This document shows, one piece after another, positions 11,134 to 19,823 of a stretch of 64,000 nt of DNA. The notes beneath the pieces were generated by a model. The model did not search any database and was not told the DNA's origin. It worked only from the letters and a program-made list of their open reading frames with translations. The stretch lies in contig JANQRE010000049.1 in NCBI GenBank assembly GCA_028284705.1, positions 1-64,000 on the forward strand. The letters run 5' to 3'. The DNA comes from Paracoccaceae bacterium. Lineage in GTDB: Bacteria; Pseudomonadota; Alphaproteobacteria; Rhodobacterales; Rhodobacteraceae. Numbering within the stretch: position 1 is the stretch's first letter; every line of letters starts with the position of its first letter. The translations under genes were made by a program, and so were the position numbers.

Positions 11134-12252
11134 ATGATCATCGGCTGTCCAAAAGAGATCAAACCCCAGGAGTTCCGCGTCGGCCTGACGCCCAATGCAG
11201 CACGCGAGGCGGTGGCGCATGGCCATGAGGTCCTGATCGAAACCCAAGCCGGTGCAGGTGCGGGCTTCCCGGATGAGGATTACACCGCCGCAGGCGCGAC
11301 CATCCTCGACACCGCCGAGGAAGTTTTTGCGAAAGCCGAGATGATCGTGAAGGTCAAAGAGCCGCAATCGGTAGAGCGCAAAATGCTGCGCGAGGGCCAG
11401 CTCCTCTTCACCTATCTCCATCTCGCGCCCGACCCCGAGCAGACCCATGACCTAATCGCCTCGGGCTGCACGGCCATCGCCTATGAGACCGTCACGGATG
11501 CCCAAGGTGGTCTCCCCTTGCTCGCGCCGATGTCCGAGGTCGCGGGCCGCCTCGCGCCGCAGGTTGGCGCCTGGACCCTGCAAAAGGCCAATGGTGGCCG
11601 CGGCGTTCTGATGGGCGGCGTCCCCGGCGTCGGCCCGGCGAAAGTCGCCGTGATCGGCGGCGGTGTCGTCGGCACCCACGCCGCCCGCATCGCCGCAGGC
11701 ATGGGTGCGGATGTCACCGTGCTCGACCGCTCCCTGCCGCGCATCCGCTATCTCGACGATGTTTTCTCCGGCCAGTTCAAGACCAGCTACGCCAGCGCCG
11801 GCAACACAGCCGAGCTGGTGGAACAGGCCGATATGGTCATCGGCGCCGTTCTGATCCCCGGGGCTGCCGCCCCGAAACTCGTCACGAAGGCCCAGCTCTC
11901 CGACATGAAACCGGGCGCCGCGATTGTCGATGTCGCCATCGACCAGGGCGGCTGTTTCGAGACCTCAAAACCCACCACCCACAAGGACCCGATCTACGAG
12001 GTCGACGGCATCATGCATTACTGCGTCGCCAACATGCCTGGCGCTGTGGCCCGCACCTCCACCATCGCCCTCGGCAACGCCACGATGCCCTTCATGCTGG
12101 CGCTCGCCGATAAAGGCTGGCGGCAGGCCTGCGAAGACGATCCCCACCTTCTCGCGGGCCTCAACGTACATGCCGGAAACCTCACCTATTTCGCCGTCGG
12201 GAAGGCGCTCGGGATCGACGTTCTCTCCCCGCAACTCGCTCTAAAGGCTTAA
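11134..12252 (+). CDS. ald: Alanine dehydrogenase
   Basis: This 372-residue NAD-dependent enzyme interconverts L-alanine with pyruvate and ammonia. Visible landmarks are [20 protein letters not shown] at the start, containing the substrate-binding Arg, KVKEPQ at about residues 73-78, and the Rossmann motif [12 protein letters not shown] near 173-184. The ATG at 11134 is preceded by GGAGG with seven-base spacing, which decides it over an in-frame ATG 102 nt upstream. The gene is divergent from an Lrp-family regulator that probably controls it. The length is typical. Confidence 0.97.
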
Positions 12253-12686
12253 TTTTCCGGCTCTACAGCACTGCAGACCTGCCCCAGCATGTTGCGCAGG
12301 TTTTTGGCGCGTTCAGCTCCGAGTTTGGTTTCAACCTCGGCATGCAGCGCCAGTTTGATGTCTACCAGCGCCGCGACCAGCGCGCGGCCCTTCTCGGTAT
12401 GCACGACCCGCTTGGCCCGCGCGTCATCGGGATCAGGTTTCACCTCGACATAACCGCGCGCGACGAGGCTTCTGACCTGTCCCTGAATGGCCTGTTTCGA
12501 CACGCCACGCGCCGCTGCAATCTGCACCATCGAGACACCCTTTTCCCCGACCTGCACCAGCACATCGCTGTCGGCCACCGTGATATCCTCAAAGCCAAGC
12601 TCCGCCACGCGCTCGTACATCGCCGCCTCATAGGCTTTGAACGCACGCCACAGATCGACGCCAATATGATCGGGGTTTTGGGTCAC
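12249..12686 (-). CDS. MarR family winged-helix regulator
   Basis: The 145-residue protein has a MarR-type winged helix: VSMVQIAAARGVSKQAIQGQVRSLVARG is the HTH, followed by the wing VKPDPDDARAKRVVHTEKG. Two starts compete: TTG at 12704, which lies inside a palindrome, and GTG at 12686, which has GGAG six bases upstream. I chose the GTG because of this ribosome-binding site and because it leaves the palindrome at 12700-12714 free as an operator. It converges on alanine dehydrogenase with a 4-nt overlap of the stops and is divergent from a small exported protein gene. Confidence 0.88.
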   Translation of the reverse strand: MTQNPDHIGVDLWRAFKAYEAAMYERVAELGFEDITVADSDVLVQVGEKGVSMVQIAAARGVSKQAIQGQVRSLVARGYVEVKPDPDDARAKRVVHTEKGRALVAALVDIKLALHAEVETKLGAERAKNLRNMLGQVCSAVEPEN

Positions 12687-12771: not shown

Positions 12772-13143
12772 ATGAAAGGTCTTGCAATGGTTAGTTTGCT
12801 CGCAACCGCCACCGCCGCGCAGGCAGAGACACAAATGTCGGATGCGCAGCTCGACGCGCTGCTGACAGGAAACACCGTCTATGTCGCAACTCCCGGCGGC
12901 GCGGCCCCGGTCTATTACGGCGCCGACGGGCGGGCTGCCGCTAATCTCCCCAACGGCACCGAGCTGCGCGGCACCTGGGTCATCAAGGACGCCGCCTATT
13001 GCGTCGATTGGGACAATGGCCCGAAGAACAGCTGCACGAAGGTCATAAAAACATCGGACGGCTACGCGATGTTCGACCTTGCCAATGGCGATCCCCGCGG
13101 CAGCGTCGACCGGATCGTGCCCGGCAATCCCGAAAACCTCTGA
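12772..13143 (+). CDS. Small exported protein, DUF995-like
   Basis: The 123-residue protein begins with a short signal peptide (MKGLAMVSLLATATAAQA, cleavage probably after residue 18). The mature part has the pattern LDALLTGNTVY, YYGADGRAAANLPNGTELRGTWVI and YCVDWDNGPKNSCTKV, which resembles DUF995-type periplasmic proteins with a compact beta fold and one conserved Cys pair (about residues 81 and 89). It is divergent from the MarR regulator and near its palindromic operator, so it is a candidate target. The function is unknown. Confidence 0.7.
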   Translation: MKGLAMVSLLATATAAQAETQMSDAQLDALLTGNTVYVATPGGAAPVYYGADGRAAANLPNGTELRGTWVIKDAAYCVDWDNGPKNSCTKVIKTSDGYAMFDLANGDPRGSVDRIVPGNPENL

Positions 13144-13242
13144 ACAGCAGGCTGGGTTCCAGACCGCCTCTCGGTTTAGACTCCAAGCATCTTGGGTGAG
13201 AAAGGAGACAACGTTTAGCCACTGCCAAGGTTCTGCTTGTAG

Positions 13243-13410
13243 GTTCAGATCGAGGAGGTCGGGGACGCAATACCGTTCCAGGACGTTTCCGGTCTCGCCA
13301 ACGCGTTTCCGACCTAAATCACAGGCACGGATTTGAAAGCCGAAGGCAATGAGGTCGCGGTCGAAAGCACCGAAGTGGCTCATAAAGAGCTGACAGGGGA
13401 GAACGCCTAG
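13243..13410 (+). pseudogene. Remnant of a SnoaL-like (NTF2-fold) gene
   Basis: Between the small exported protein and the radical SAM gene, one frame reads VQIEEVGDAIPFQDVSGLA, then reaches FPT, a TAA at 13315-13317, and ITGTDLKAEGNEVAVES up to a TAG at 13408. The ITGT-x-AEGN-x-VAVE pattern is typical of SnoaL-like epoxide-hydrolase relatives. There is no start codon with a ribosome-binding site and the frame is interrupted, so this looks like a decayed fragment. The rest of the 308-nt space holds nothing that I recognise. Confidence 0.4.
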
Positions 13411-13451
13411 ACGTCTGCCGAACGCGCCGAGATAGACTCAAATCGCAATAA

Positions 13452-14735
13452 TTGATAACCTCGTCTCAGTATTTTGAATGTTTATTCTGTGGGGTTGGGG
13501 GTTTGTTGAAAGAATTGAGCGTTCCGAACCTGCGTGGTTCGGCGGCGCAAAAGAACGGGCGCGACCAGAAGTCCCGGTTCGACATCACATCGATCACGAT
13601 GCTGGTCACGGAGCAATGCAACCTGCGTTGTGACTATTGCTACATCTACAAAAACGCCAAGAAGATGTCCGAGGAGACGGCGAAACGGTCCGTCGATTTC
13701 CTGATTGAAAACTCGACAACCACAGATGGCAGGCTCTTCATCTGCTTCTTTGGGGGTGAACCGCTCCTGGAACCCGAGCTGGTCGCGTTGACCGCCGACT
13801 ACGCGCTGGAGGAAGCGGCAAAAAGATCGCTCGACATGCGCTTCTCCATGACCACAAATGCCACGCTCATCGACGATAAGCGGCTCAATTTGCTGAAGAA
13901 ATACAACATCAGCCCGACTTTCAGCCTCGATGGCATTGGCGAGGCGCATGACAGGCATCGCAAGACAATCGCTGGTCGCGGCTCGTTCAAATATATCGAA
14001 CGCAACCTGCTGCGCCTTCTGGAGCTACCCTTCTCGACGATCCGTCTCACCGTTGCGCCGGAAACAACCCGTGCCCTGCCGGACTCGATCCGGTGGCTGA
14101 TCGACAAGGGCTTCAAGCGCATCTCGATCTCTCCGGTGGTGGAGGCGGAATGGGATGCCGCCGCGCTCTCGGACTATTACGACGCTTGGCTGGAGATTTA
14201 TGACATCCAGGCCAAGCTTCTGAGAGCCGATCCAAAGGACTTTCGAGTTTCGAACATCTTTTCGATGCATATGGATCTGAAATCGCCCGAAAGCCGGGAG
14301 TTCGGCTGCGGTGCTGCCCGCAACATGGTGGCCATCGATTCCTCAGGCAATCTCTACCCGTGTCACCGCTATGTTGGTTATCTGAAGAACGATCCCTCGG
14401 CCCAGATCGGAAATGTGTTTGACGGCTATGACGACAAACAGCGCGATCTCTACATTTCGGCAAATCGCATCGAGACGCATCGCGGATGTGGGGAAGGTCT
14501 GTTTTCTGACGCGACAGAAAAAGACCAGCGCAAATGCAGCAACTGCTCTCTGATCGGCAATTGCGGCAGCTCGTGCATGGCGGTCAATCAGCACATGACC
14601 GGCAATCCGACACGACCCCATCCGATCAACCGCGTGCTCTCGCAGATCCACACATCCGTTCATATTCAAACGCAATACGAGATACCGGACGAGTATCTTG
14701 AGCCGGGTGATGCCGCGCTCTGTGCAACGCCATGA
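13452..14735 (+). CDS. Radical SAM/SPASM peptide maturase
   Basis: The 427-residue protein carries the radical SAM cluster motif Cys56-x3-Cys60-x2-Cys63 (TEQCNLRCDYCY), the SAM-binding GGEP at 101-104, and a C-terminal SPASM domain with seven cysteines (286, 304, 346, 362, 365, 371, 375), the pattern that ligates two auxiliary iron-sulfur clusters. Such enzymes cross-link or otherwise modify peptides and sulfatase-like proteins. The first 40 residues are variable and no ATG precedes the catalytic core; the start must be non-ATG (TTG at 13452, 13503, 13506 or 13515), and none has a strong ribosome-binding site. A cysteine-rich protein gene follows 25 nt downstream and is the likely substrate. 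The enzyme's exact reaction cannot be told from sequence. Confidence 0.9.
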   Translation: MITSSQYFECLFCGVGGLLKELSVPNLRGSAAQKNGRDQKSRFDITSITMLVTEQCNLRCDYCYIYKNAKKMSEETAKRSVDFLIENSTTTDGRLFICFFGGEPLLEPELVALTADYALEEAAKRSLDMRFSMTTNATLIDDKRLNLLKKYNISPTFSLDGIGEAHDRHRKTIAGRGSFKYIERNLLRLLELPFSTIRLTVAPETTRALPDSIRWLIDKGFKRISISPVVEAEWDAAALSDYYDAWLEIYDIQAKLLRADPKDFRVSNIFSMHMDLKSPESREFGCGAARNMVAIDSSGNLYPCHRYVGYLKNDPSAQIGNVFDGYDDKQRDLYISANRIETHRGCGEGLFSDATEKDQRKCSNCSLIGNCGSSCMAVNQHMTGNPTRPHPINRVLSQIHTSVHIQTQYEIPDEYLEPGDAALCATP

Positions 14736-14760
14736 GGATTTCAGTCAGGAGGATTTTGAC

Positions 14761-15114
14761 ATGAGTTCAGAAGCAAACCGCAAATACAAAGAGCTGTCGG
14801 AGAAGATATTCGGCCATCTCGACAAAGAGGAAATCCCCTGCATCGATGACGTTCTACGGGCCCTTATGGTGGCGAAAGGACGCAAATTCGCCCTCAGTCC
14901 GAACCTGATCGAACGCGTCGCGGCTAGCATGGAAGATGGGCAATCTCCCGATAGTCCCACACCGCTCAGCTGCCTCATGATCGATTGCATCAGAAATGAA
15001 GGCAAAGAGGTGATCGATATCGAGGATTGGTGTTGCTACTGCGATGCGCCCCGCGACAAATGCATCAAATGCGACTCCATTGACTGCAACCCGCCGCAGC
15101 CCGATCTCCACTAG
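14761..15114 (+). CDS. Cysteine-rich 117-residue protein, probable substrate of the radical SAM enzyme
   Basis: The ATG at 14761 has a strong AGGAGG eight bases upstream, which decides it over an earlier in-frame codon. The protein has an N-terminal helical, charged half (residues 1-60, with one Cys at 27) and nine cysteines in total: 27, 71, 76, 91, 92, 94, 101, 104 and 109. The last 27 residues hold six of them in a CCYC - 6 - CxxC - 4 - C pattern ending in NPPQPDLH. No signal peptide or membrane segment is visible. Position right behind the maturase and the leader-plus-Cys-core layout suggest a RiPP precursor or a modified metal-binding protein. I do not recognise the family. Confidence 0.8.
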   Translation: MSSEANRKYKELSEKIFGHLDKEEIPCIDDVLRALMVAKGRKFALSPNLIERVAASMEDGQSPDSPTPLSCLMIDCIRNEGKEVIDIEDWCCYCDAPRDKCIKCDSIDCNPPQPDLH

Positions 15115-15183
15115 CCGATCCGCGCCCGAGCTGATGACATCTCTCGGCTCTGCGGAGACACGCGCGGAACCAGGGCGCACGTA

Positions 15184-15218
15184 AGGAAAAGACCCGCCAT
15201 ATCGGACGGGCCTTTCCT
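15184..15218 (-). terminator. Rho-independent terminator of mscL
   Basis: An imperfect stem (AGGAAA...CCCG / CGGG...TTTCCT) lies 16 nt after the mscL stop. On the minus strand it is followed by a TTTTCC stretch, which fits termination of mscL. Confidence 0.6.
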
Positions 15219-15823: not shown

Positions 15824-16522
15824 ATGTCCTATGTTACCTCTCACCCGATCAACGCGAAGTGGCCCGCGGAAAACCCCGACATCCTGCAGCTCTACTCCTT
15901 CCCGACCCCCAACGGCGTGAAGGCCTCCATCGCGCTTGAGGAAATGGCCATCCCCTACGAGGCCCATAAGGTGACCCTCGCAGATGCGGACGTCAAAAGC
16001 CCCGAGTTCCTGGCGCTCAACCCCAACAACAAAATCCCCGCAATCATCGACCCCAATGGACCCGATGGAGAAGCCGTCACGCTTTTCGAGTCCGGGGCGA
16101 TCCTGATCTATCTGGCGGAGAAATCCGGTATCCTGATGGGCAGCAACGCCACCGAGAAGGCACATGTGATCCAATGGCTGATGTTCCAGATGGGTGGCCT
16201 CGGTCCGATGCTGGGTCAGCTTGGTTTCTTCTGGAAATTCGCGGGCTCCGAATACGAGGACAAGCGCCCCCAACAGCGCTATGTCGATGAGGCCAAGCGC
16301 CTGCTCGCCGTGTTGGAGAGAGAGCTCGACGACAAGGACTGGATCACTGGTCAATATTCCATCGCCGATATCGCCATCGCGCCCTGGCTGCGCGCGCTGG
16401 ATTTCTACGGTGCGAAAGAGGTCGTCGGCTGGGAGGATCACAAGAACCTCGTCGCCTATCTTGAACGGTTTCTCGAACGTCCCGCCGTGCAGAAGGGTTT
16501 GGTTACTCCGCCGCGCGACTAG
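15824..16522 (+). CDS. Glutathione S-transferase family protein (nu-class/YghU-like)
   Basis: The 232-residue protein has an N-terminal thioredoxin fold (YSFPTPNGVKASIALEEM, about residues 21-38, then NPNNKIPAIIDP) and an all-helical C-terminal domain with GQYSIADIAIAPW as the conserved N-capping motif. The TPNG at the active site, instead of a catalytic Ser or Cys, resembles the YfcG/YghU group, which have disulfide-bond reductase activity with glutathione. The ATG at 15824 was preferred over the adjacent TTG at 15821. It stands alone between mscL and the S41-like gene. Confidence 0.9.
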   Translation: MSYVTSHPINAKWPAENPDILQLYSFPTPNGVKASIALEEMAIPYEAHKVTLADADVKSPEFLALNPNNKIPAIIDPNGPDGEAVTLFESGAILIYLAEKSGILMGSNATEKAHVIQWLMFQMGGLGPMLGQLGFFWKFAGSEYEDKRPQQRYVDEAKRLLAVLERELDDKDWITGQYSIADIAIAPWLRALDFYGAKEVVGWEDHKNLVAYLERFLERPAVQKGLVTPPRD

Positions 16523-16700
16523 GCTCAATCGTACTGCTCTTCCCTTAGCACCACCCGGTGTTCCAGTTCGGTCCGCACCCACACCGGACGCGGTAGACCA
16601 TCACTATCCCCGCCGGTTGCATCGGTGATACGGCCCCGCATGAGATGTCGGTTGTGGGCCCAATCTGGACATCGACCAGCAGCTATGCGCACCGTAAACC

Positions 16701-17876
16701 ATGTCGCTGAAGCAAGACCTCGAGCACATTCTAGAAACTGTCCTGCCGACCGACCCCAGCTTTCGGCGGATCGAACAGCCGGTGATAGACCGCTGCATTT
16801 CTGACACCCGGCGATACGCTGTGGAGGGCTCCAAAGAGGCCTTTCTGTTTTCCGCGATGCGCTTACTGGCACTTCCAGACAACGGGCACACACGGCTGAT
16901 TCCGAACGATGCCATCTCGGTGCTCCCGCTGAGGTTTGTGAGCATCGGAACGGCCGTGCATTTGATTGGCGCGGCACCGGAAACACTTGCGCCAAGAGGA
17001 GAGTTGATTGCCGTCAACGGCACACCTGTGAACCAGATTGAGGGCGCCGCAGCGAGGTTTCTGGCGGGAACGCGCCAAAGGAAACTGGCCATCGGATCGC
17101 TTCTTCTCGCGTGGCCGTATGCTCTGGCTCGCCTGGGGGTTCCCTCAAAAGACGATACGACCGAGTATCGCGTGCAGGACGAGAACGGGCAGATAACCGA
17201 TTTCAAAGTGGAGAACGGGTACACGGTTCCTGCTTCTACGCTCTACCCGAGAAACGAGCATGGCAAGGCTGATCCGGCCTGGAAACCCGAGAGATTTGTG
17301 GAGATTGAGGACTGGCAGGAACTCGGGCTTTCAATAGCGTTGCCAAGTTTCTTCGATCCAGGCGAAAACGCGCTGCCGAAAGCCATCTTGGGTGCGGCAG
17401 AACACGTAAGCGCCTGCTCGGAAAAAACACTCTTGGTCGACATTCGCGGAAACACCGGTGGCGACTTTCTTAAAACAATGCCCTTGATCGACGCTATCTC
17501 TGAAAACGCACGCAGGCAGGTTGGCATGCTTGTCGATAAATTCACGTTTTCCGCAGCGATCGTGTTTGTCGCCATCCTCAAACATCGTTTGGAAGGCAGG
17601 CTCAAACTCATCGGGGAAGAAATGGGCGACGGGTTGACGTTCTTTGCCGAGGGCGGGTTGCTCGAATTGCCGACCAGCGGCGCGGTCGTTCGATACTCAT
17701 CCGCCTTTCACGACTGGAAGAACGGAACCAGCGATGAAACCACACCGCCCGAAATCGCGCAGCAAATAGTCCCGGCTGGAGCACTGGATTTGGATTGGGA
17801 ATGGACCGCAAAGCCTGCGGCTGAGGATGCGCATGGCGCGTTCTACCAACGAGTTCTCAAAACTCTGACCAATTAG
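16701..17876 (+). CDS. S41-like (C-terminal processing) peptidase-related protein
   Basis: The 391-residue protein resembles tail-specific peptidases of family S41. Visible elements are DNGHTRL at residues 60-66, a PDZ-like stretch around 74-118 (GELIAVNGTPVNQIEG), the strand VDIRGNTGG at 246-254, and DKFTFSAA with a candidate nucleophile Ser284. The catalytic Lys expected after the strand LIGEEMGDG is not visible, so the protein may use another base or be inactive. No signal peptide is present, unlike most S41 enzymes. It has no operon partners. The 178 nt before it hold only a 38-codon minus-strand frame of doubtful value. Confidence 0.7.
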   Translation: MSLKQDLEHILETVLPTDPSFRRIEQPVIDRCISDTRRYAVEGSKEAFLFSAMRLLALPDNGHTRLIPNDAISVLPLRFVSIGTAVHLIGAAPETLAPRGELIAVNGTPVNQIEGAAARFLAGTRQRKLAIGSLLLAWPYALARLGVPSKDDTTEYRVQDENGQITDFKVENGYTVPASTLYPRNEHGKADPAWKPERFVEIEDWQELGLSIALPSFFDPGENALPKAILGAAEHVSACSEKTLLVDIRGNTGGDFLKTMPLIDAISENARRQVGMLVDKFTFSAAIVFVAILKHRLEGRLKLIGEEMGDGLTFFAEGGLLELPTSGAVVRYSSAFHDWKNGTSDETTPPEIAQQIVPAGALDLDWEWTAKPAAEDAHGAFYQRVLKTLTN

Positions 17877-17927
17877 ACGAACGGTTGCTTCGCCCGCACA
17901 ATGGATGTTCGCGTCTGGAAAGATCTA

Positions 17928-18028
17928 GAGCGAAATCGGTTTGACCTGCAACAGGATGCATCACTTAACGCGTTGAAATCCTTGATTTCGAGCAGCGTTG
18001 AGTGAGTCAGGTCTGCCGATTTCTGCTC
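17928..18028. repeat. Long imperfect palindrome (possible repetitive element)
   Basis: The outer arms GAGCGAAATCGG...TGACCTG and CAGGTCTGCCGATTTCTGCTC pair with one or two mismatches and a 1-nt bulge. Inner arms CACTTAACGC / GCGTTGAGTG and the tip AAATC-CTT-GATTT continue the symmetry, so nearly the whole element folds back on itself. No open frame is present. It may be a mobile palindromic unit of the kind scattered in alphaproteobacterial genomes. Confidence 0.6.
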
Positions 18029-18054
18029 CAACGGCACGATCAACATCACCGGAC

Positions 18055-18089
18055 CTGATCTGACCTAACCTAACCTAACCTGACCCGAC
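18055..18089 (+). repeat. Short tandem pentamer array
   Basis: Seven consecutive 5-nt units: CTGAT, CTGAC, three identical CTAAC, CTGAC and CCGAC. This is a degenerate microsatellite in non-coding DNA directly after the palindrome. Confidence 0.75.
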
Positions 18090-18206
18090 CCACACGCAGC
18101 CAGGCTTCGCTTGGATAAACCTCCCATTATCCGAATCGCCTAGGGTAAAGGGCGGTAGGGGGAGGGCTGGTTTGGGCACGGAAACGACGCGTTTGTCGCG
18201 TTGTTC

Positions 18207-19823
18207 CTAAGGGTGCGCGCCGCGCGCCGTCATCGCATCGGCAATCTTCTCCGCCATCATGATGGTGGGCGCATTGGTGTTCCCGCCGATCAGCTTCGGC
18301 ATCAGCGAGGCATCCACGACCCTGAGGCCCTCGACCCCGCGCACGCGGCCCTCGAGATCGCAGACAGCCTCCGCATCGCTGCCCATCCGACAAGTGCCGA
18401 CCGGGTGATAAATCGTGTCCGCCCGCGCCCGGATATCGGCCTCCAGCGCCACATTGGACCGGTCATGGGCGTAGAGCTTCTTGCCACGCCACGGGCTCAG
18501 CGGCTCCGCCTCCATGATCCGTTCCATCAGCCGCGCGCCCCGCATCATCGCTTCAAGATCAGCCGGTGCGGACAGGTAATTCGGATCGATCCGCGGTGGC
18601 GCGAAGGGGCTTTTCGAGTGCAGCCCAACCGCGCCCCGGCTTTCTGGCCGCAGCACGCAGACATGGCAGGAGAACCCATGCGCCAGATGAATCTTGCGTA
18701 AATGGTCGTCCACGATCCCAACGACGAAATGCAGCTGCACATCCGGGCGCTCCAGGCTCGGATCGGTTTTTACAAACGCACCGCCCTCGGCCATCGGTGA
18801 GGCGAAGAGCCCAACGCCTTCCTTGCGCCATCGCAACGCCGCGCGCCCCAATTGCCAAAGACCCAACGGGTTCAGCCCCACCGTGTCCTTGCGCTTCGAT
18901 TTGTAGGACAGGATGTAATCCAGATGATCCTGCAGGTTTTGCCCGACACCTTCGGAGACATGCACCGGCGCGATCCCATGGGCGCGCAATTCGTCCTCCG
19001 GCCCGATCCCCGACAGCATCATCAATTGCGGTGAGCCGAAGGCCCCCGCCGACAGGATCACGTCGCGCCGGACTGTCAGCCGACCCGCAGCGCGGTTGGA
19101 GGCATAATCCACCCCCACCGCACGCTTGTCCTCCATCACCATCCCCGTGGCGCGGGTCCGGGTGAGGATCGTCAGGTTCTCTCGCCGGCGCACCTCACGC
19201 GGCAGGTAAGCCGCGGCAGCGGAACAGCGCTCACCCTTTTGCGGCCCATCATGGAACTGCGTGACCTGATAGAGCCCGGCCCCTTCCTGATGCGGACCGT
19301 TGAAATCAGCGTTTACCGGGATCTGCATTTCCGCGCAGGCATCGACAAAACCATGGGTGATCTGCCGCGGCTCTGCCTGGTCACCGACTTGCAAGGGGCC
19401 TGCGTCCCCATGCAATGCATCCGCGCCGCGCGCATTGCCCTCGGCCTTGCGGAAATAGGGCAAAACACTTTGCCAATCCCAGCCCTCACAACCCATCTCC
19501 GCCCAGTCATCGTAATCGGAGGGATGCCCGCGCACATAAAGCATCGCGTTGATGGCGGAGGACCCGCCCAGGGCTTTGCCGCGTGGCTGAAACCCGCGGC
19601 GCCCATTCAGTTCCGCCTGCGGCTCGGTGTGGAACGCCCAATTGTTGATCTTCGGACGGCCCGACACCATCGCCGCCACAAGCGCTGGCGCCCGGATGAA
19701 GATGTCGCGCCCTCTTCGGCCCGCCTCGATCAGACAGACCGTCACGGAGGGGTCCTCAGACAATCGCGCGGCCATCACCGAGCCTGCCGAGCCGCCGCCG
19801 ACAATGACATAGTCAAACTCCAT
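18207..19823 (-). CDS. GMC family FAD-dependent oxidoreductase (choline/alcohol dehydrogenase type)
   Basis: The 538-residue flavoprotein has the dinucleotide-binding motif [16 protein letters not shown] at residues 6-21, the GMC signature stretch [18 protein letters not shown], the second signature [15 protein letters not shown], and the C-terminal catalytic region with [10 protein letters not shown] and GGNTNAPT. These features place it with choline dehydrogenase-like enzymes that oxidise primary alcohols. The betaine aldehyde dehydrogenase and betI genes normally seen with betA are absent, so the substrate is open. The ATG at 19823 starts directly at the FAD motif; a 19-residue longer form lacks a ribosome-binding site. 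Confidence 0.9.

Follow-up and report, generated by a model that had tools for sequence, protein, structure and literature searches.

The question raised by this locus is what a radical SAM/SPASM enzyme does together with the small cysteine-rich protein encoded directly behind it. Both genes lie in a window of 64,000 nucleotides, the whole stretch of DNA that was analyzed, from contig JANQRE010000049.1 of a Paracoccaceae bacterium. The first-pass annotation had regarded them as a possible new RiPP or protein-modification system with an unfamiliar partner protein. This novelty is not borne out, as the maturase passes the cut-off of the PapB family and the partner appears freyrasin-like. The comparisons described below make it very probable that the gene pair is a minimal freyrasin-like ranthipeptide-type system that was acquired by one strain. 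The reference for the comparison is the freyrasin system PapA/PapB of Paenibacillus polymyxa (PMC9413430, PMC10470005, PMC8172795).

Gene layout and family of the maturase

The maturase gene and its conserved motifs are as follows.

13452..14735, + strand, PapB-like radical SAM/SPASM maturase P0001, 427 aa as read (open frame; 351.3 bits with NF047865)
13617..13640, + strand, radical SAM motif CNLRCDYC (C56, C60, C63), a CX3CX2C motif (sequence)
14307..14369, + strand, SPASM CX12GX4C (C286, C304), then R306 (spacing relative to published PapB residues; alignment)
14535..14576, + strand, CX2CX5CX3C block (C362, C365, C371, C375) (sequence, alignment)

The frame at 13452-14735 begins with TTG, and a stop codon stands immediately before it. 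Homology starts only at residue 45 of the 427-aa reading, and in-frame TTG codons are found at 13452, 13503, 13506, and 13515, so the true start may be any of the four. The partner gene starts 25 nt past the maturase stop with AGGAGG in front, and it encodes 117 residues with nine cysteines and the C-terminal pattern CCYC - 6 - CxxC - 4 - C, exactly as first described. On the upstream side, no RRE-like open frame was recognized by eye in 13140-13600. The stretch 13243-13410 (+), 5′ of the maturase, resembles by eye the tail of a decayed gene, and its last 28 codons have no match in phage records. Separately, P0004 has one distant viral-contig relative (24%).

Family assignment followed the curated cut-offs of NCBIfam, which are 340 bits for NF047865 (PapB family ranthipeptide maturase), 30 for NF037957 (freyrasin family), 425 for TIGR03974 (SCIFF maturase), 453 for TIGR03906 (QhpD), and 518.7 for TIGR04064 (nif11-like peptide maturase). 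The score of the maturase with NF047865 exceeds the cut-off by a margin of only 11 bits; chance is excluded by this family score. Identification as a SCIFF maturase (164.1 bits), QhpD (161.7 bits), or a nif11-like peptide maturase (181.5 bits) was rejected, as each score is under the respective cut-off. SCIFF and QhpC-type systems had been named initially among the possible relatives, and their maturases turn out to be distant cousins. The best PDB sequence match of the maturase is 5wgg, with the e-value 2.1e-31, which is CteB (PMC10470005) of the SCIFF pair CteA/CteB, and the maturase is distantly related to QhpD as well. Unlike in SCIFF systems, the partner matched the freyrasin model alone in NCBIfam, and unlike in the QhpD/QhpC system, it showed no match to the QhpC family. 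An anti-phage role was also considered and rejected: the maturase matches prokaryotic viperin models of PADLOC via its radical SAM domain, and the best score, 52.7 bits with models for which no cut-off is given, is far under its PapB score. The partner protein P0002 has no PADLOC match.

The full radical SAM motif reported at first is present, and C56, C60, and C63 are invariant across an alignment of seven enzymes. R306 is the equivalent of PapB Arg372, based on spacing and alignment; both are located two residues past the Cys of GX4C. In PapB, Arg372 stands two residues after C370, and its replacement abolishes activity (PMC10470005, PMC9413430). The pair shares with PapA/PapB the family cut-off, the radical SAM motif with six SPASM cysteines, the Arg372 equivalent, and an adjoining CX3D precursor.

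The partner protein as probable precursor

The features of the partner gene are as follows.

14747..14760, + strand, AGGAGG ribosome-binding site (14747-14752) and spacer ahead of the partner gene (sequence)
14761..15114, + strand, putative freyrasin-like precursor P0002, 117 aa (16.3 bits with NF037957; BLAST with P0003)
14821..14916, + strand, conserved leader segment, residues 21-52 (leader-only alignment with P0003)
14971..15084, + strand, predicted core with five CX3[DE] motifs: C71-D75, C76-E80, C91-D95, C101-D105, and C104-D108 (sequence)

P0002 contains cysteines at positions 27, 71, 76, 91, 92, 94, 101, 104, and 109, six of them within the final 27 residues. Its score with the freyrasin model is under the cut-off of 30, and no other NCBIfam model matched. 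In a whole-genome scan P0002 was the best NF037957 match, yet at 13.4 bits and E 0.26 this is not significant. The homology became visible through comparison with P0003, a freyrasin-family peptide from Methylocystis (BLAST E 2e-5). None of 5000 shuffles aligned as well as the full-length proteins, and when the Cys-rich parts were removed and only the leaders were aligned, 3 of 5000 were as good. The NF037957 match and the BLAST alignment place the leader in one register.

The C-terminal part of P0002 includes four CX3D motifs and one CX3E. Five or more CX3[DE] motifs were seen in 1.25% of P0002 shuffles (0.5% for the C-terminal part), where the mean was 1.7. This rarity argues against a chance pattern, and the homology to a freyrasin-family peptide strengthens the case. 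In CX3D/E motifs, PapB forms cross-links between Cys and Asp or Glu, either in line or nested (PMC9413430). Four of the nine cysteines (C27, C92, C94, and C109) have no CX3D/E partner. The CX3D spacing is strict according to PMC8172795, and Cys-acid separations of zero to six are tolerated according to PMC9413430; since these two accounts differ in their statements on spacing, the four cysteines may or may not take part. Unlike PapA, which has six CX3D motifs, the precursor of the window mixes CX3D and CX3E, is long, and scores below the family cut-off.

A small CX3D peptide adjoins all four proteins found over the NF047865 cut-off. It lies downstream of the enzyme in the window and in Methylocystis, and upstream in Anaerococcus and Paraclostridium bifermentans. 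On a plasmid of Methylocystis iwaonis, WP_281932655.1 (411.8 bits with NF047865; 36% identity to the window maturase over 367 columns) is directly followed by WP_350356532.1, annotated as a freyrasin family ranthipeptide (70.8 bits with NF037957). This is the only close pair found, and like the pair in the window it combines an extra Cys and insert, a short N-terminus, a precursor directly downstream, and a homologous leader. Unlike P0002, the Methylocystis precursor is 84 aa in length, has seven regular CX3D motifs, and is plasmid-borne. As the existing annotation assigns this peptide to the freyrasin family, the pair in the window is a variant of a kind of system that is already known.

The Anaerococcus prevotii plasmid encodes a 50 aa CX3D peptide upstream of its PapB-family gene (L139:2491-4077). 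On the P. bifermentans plasmid (L140/L154), the enzyme reached 356.2 bits with NF047865, scored from a 301-aa stretch, and an unannotated 38-aa frame that contains three Cys and two CX3D motifs is located upstream, at most 311 nt away and across the record start. The small peptides of Anaerococcus and P. bifermentans both contain CIFCDG. None of six plasmid enzymes under the cut-off (P0011, P0013, P0014, P0015, L141, and L144) has a CX3[DE] peptide nearby, in a scan of the + strand only that required at least two CX3[DE] motifs and at least four Cys. That scan missed the P. bifermentans peptide, where the stretch is cut at the record start; the looser scan that found it was not used on the six negatives. 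On a Bradyrhizobium plasmid (L145:2872-5540), the genes for a QhpD-like radical SAM enzyme and a tryptophan halogenase overlap, which may represent another modification pathway.

Judging from its sequence, P0002 can be classed as a precursor that is freyrasin-like, though divergent, and its leader aligns with that of an annotated member of the freyrasin family; it is not the unfamiliar protein it first seemed. That it is the substrate of the maturase, as had been proposed, is well supported by the homologous leader, by the CX3D/E motifs, and by the occurrence of an equivalent gene pair in Methylocystis.

The NF047865 score over the cut-off, R306, the leader homology, the five CX3[DE] motifs, and the gene pairing argue for PapB-type Cys-Asp/Glu chemistry, and we infer that chemistry and ring pattern would be as in PapB/PapA, with in-line and interlaced rings expected. 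In the proposed mechanism, the maturase would bind the leader of the 117-aa precursor, and the radical SAM cluster would generate a 5′-deoxyadenosyl radical that abstracts a hydrogen from a side-chain carbon, Asp C-beta or Glu C-gamma. The Cys sulfur four residues upstream of the Asp/Glu, probably held at an auxiliary cluster, would then join this carbon as a thioether, with a change of -2 Da each. C71-D75 and C76-E80 would form rings in line, followed by C91-D95 and by the interlaced rings C101-D105 and C104-D108. Formation of all five rings would give about -10 Da.

An alternative, unlikely though the strongest of those considered, is that P0002 folds and stays inside the cell, as a subunit or metal-binding protein stabilized by Cys-Asp/Glu links in the manner of QhpC, and is not cleaved and exported as a peptide. 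Cys-Asp/Glu thioethers occur in quinohemoprotein amine dehydrogenase (PMC8326336). The length of 117 aa is compatible with such a protein, PapB and QhpD enzymes come from related families (266.5 bits for a QhpD with the PapB model), and the inserted block contains no transporter or dedicated peptidase, as had been pointed out correctly. Against it, the N-terminal half of P0002 aligns with the leader of a freyrasin-family peptide, and no dehydrogenase subunit was found among the neighbors scanned with Pfam. Identification as a QhpC-type subunit was rejected, as NF037958 gave no match to P0002 at E up to 10; a Paracoccus QhpC scored 164.9 bits for comparison. The freyrasin-like precursor is preferred, and because the block has no export genes, its product may possibly be an intracellular cross-linked protein.

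Departures from PapB in the SPASM region and the N-terminus

The initial description credited the maturase with all seven SPASM cysteines. Seven cysteines are present in the region, and six match the seven of PapB; the last PapB ligand, C440, has no counterpart, the canonical position behind CX2CX5CX3C being without a Cys, and one Cys is added upstream instead.

14487..14489, + strand, extra Cys C346, inside an insert (alignment of seven enzymes)

The insert comprises ~16 residues upstream of the CX2CX5CX3C block in the alignment. Alone among the other aligned enzymes, that of Methylocystis has the same insert and Cys (C310), and the last Cys is absent from it too. In the remaining five, a Cys follows the block, C346 has no counterpart, and the insert is missing entirely or for the most part. 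The absence of the seventh SPASM Cys does not keep the Methylocystis enzyme from its high score with NF047865.

These altered cluster ligands could lead to a different product, with alpha-carbon thioethers or C-C links, given the loss of the last canonical Cys and the appearance of another in the insert. This is improbable in view of the CX3D/E enrichment, the passed PapB cut-off, and the Arg372 equivalent. In the Methylocystis partner, moreover, every one of the seven Cys belongs to a CX3D motif, despite the same altered SPASM region of its enzyme. Cys-Asp/Glu thioethers of the PapB type remain the expected product.

The second departure is at the N-terminus. The first radical SAM Cys is at position 56 as read in the window maturase versus 119 in PapB, which leaves 55 and 118 residues ahead of it, respectively (PMC10470005, PMC9413430 for PapB). 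The corresponding number is 17 in Methylocystis, and 90-111 in the Nostoc, Anaerococcus, and QhpD enzymes. An N-terminal RRE of PapB is assumed in PMC9413430 and is expected from the PapB numbering; the N-terminus of the window maturase, judged by length only, is too short for an RRE-sized region. Two enzymes below the PapB cut-off have 8 (Actinomyces) and 56 (Bradyrhizobium) residues N-terminal to the first radical SAM Cys. As these are more distant enzymes, the short N-terminus is not peculiar to the branch of the window and Methylocystis. In the phylogenetic tree, the window maturase was grouped with the Methylocystis enzyme and a long-branch Actinomyces enzyme (94/97), in a topology whose deeper forks are without resolution and whose long branches are flagged.

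Somewhat short of even probability is given to the reading that the enzymes of the window and of Methylocystis form a compact PapB-like branch, which lost the leader-binding domain and rebuilt the SPASM region with the insert Cys as a replacement ligand. If this is true, the leader would be recognized on another surface, and the pair would be a naturally minimal two-gene tool for Cys-Asp/Glu stapling.

Insertion site, distribution, and implications

13144..15186, no strand assigned, inserted block (left edge from relative G012, where the alignment ends at 13143; right edge from relative G003, where it resumes at 15187)

The inserted block is ~2 kb in size. Neither maturase nor precursor is encoded in the six same-genus mscL-locus stretches that were examined, of 19 located. 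G012 and G017 have a MarR-like gene and a 123-aa gene (12772-13143), then a short gap, mscL, and a GST gene, and the window alignment ends at 13143 and 13134 against them. For the other four stretches the alignment goes no further than the alanine dehydrogenase gene (12218-12255), which indicates that these relatives lack the MarR-like and 123-aa genes or have diverged copies of them; G016 has a MarR-like gene (49%). The alignment resumes between 15187 and 15361 in all six relatives. In G003, hardly any sequence separates alanine dehydrogenase from mscL, and in G006 and G018 other genes occupy the interval. Based on this different gene content, the interval is a variable slot. In two relatives (L136:4240-6490 and L138:1760-4150), endonuclease-like and peptidoglycan-binding proteins and LysR-like regulators were recognized in it by eye.

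The G+C content of the block is 0.549, compared with 0.618 upstream, 0.582 downstream, and 0.607 for the window; the drop is clear against the upstream side and less clear against the downstream side. The insertion edges carry only imperfect repeats of 17-27 nt that are 70-82% alike. A gain of the two-gene block by one strain is the best explanation for this arrangement. A phage origin was rejected, as neither P0001 nor P0002 has a viral-contig relative and P0002 has no PHROGs match. An S41-peptidase-like protein, under the Pfam cut-off, is encoded at 16701-17876 (+), 1.6 kb from the pair, within a second stretch where alignments to two relatives break (~16520 to 18231). It was rejected as an obligate leader peptidase: of 120 family genomes, 6 encode it, and in five of these no PapB-family match exceeds the cut-off.

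The window's own genome was the only one with a PapB-model match over the cut-off among 394 family genomes, and 14 control genomes had none. The same was observed among 385 class and 398 phylum genomes (searched at E up to 1e-85), in samples that overlap with each other and with that of the family. Homologues of P0002 were found neither in 389 other genomes of the order nor, at E up to 1, in plasmids. The least probable alternative is a non-functional import in decay, with an enzyme without leader-binding domain and a diverging substrate: it would suit the occurrence in one genome, the short N-terminus, the TTG start, and a simple promoter scan that found 0 sites for the locus against 1.4 expected, and it conflicts with two intact frames, a strong ribosome-binding site, preserved catalytic motifs, and an equally compact homologous pair in Methylocystis.

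PapB is used as a peptide-stapling tool (PMC9413430, PMC8566587). In the open literature, searched by title or abstract start, no paper dealt with PapB-type systems in Alphaproteobacteria or with an RRE-less PapB. The gene pair would place a freyrasin-like system in a lineage without any other in the genomes searched. As a relative with a short N-terminus, altered ligands, and a protein-sized Cys-Asp/Cys-Glu substrate, it would allow one to test directly which PapB parts leader binding and electron return depend on.
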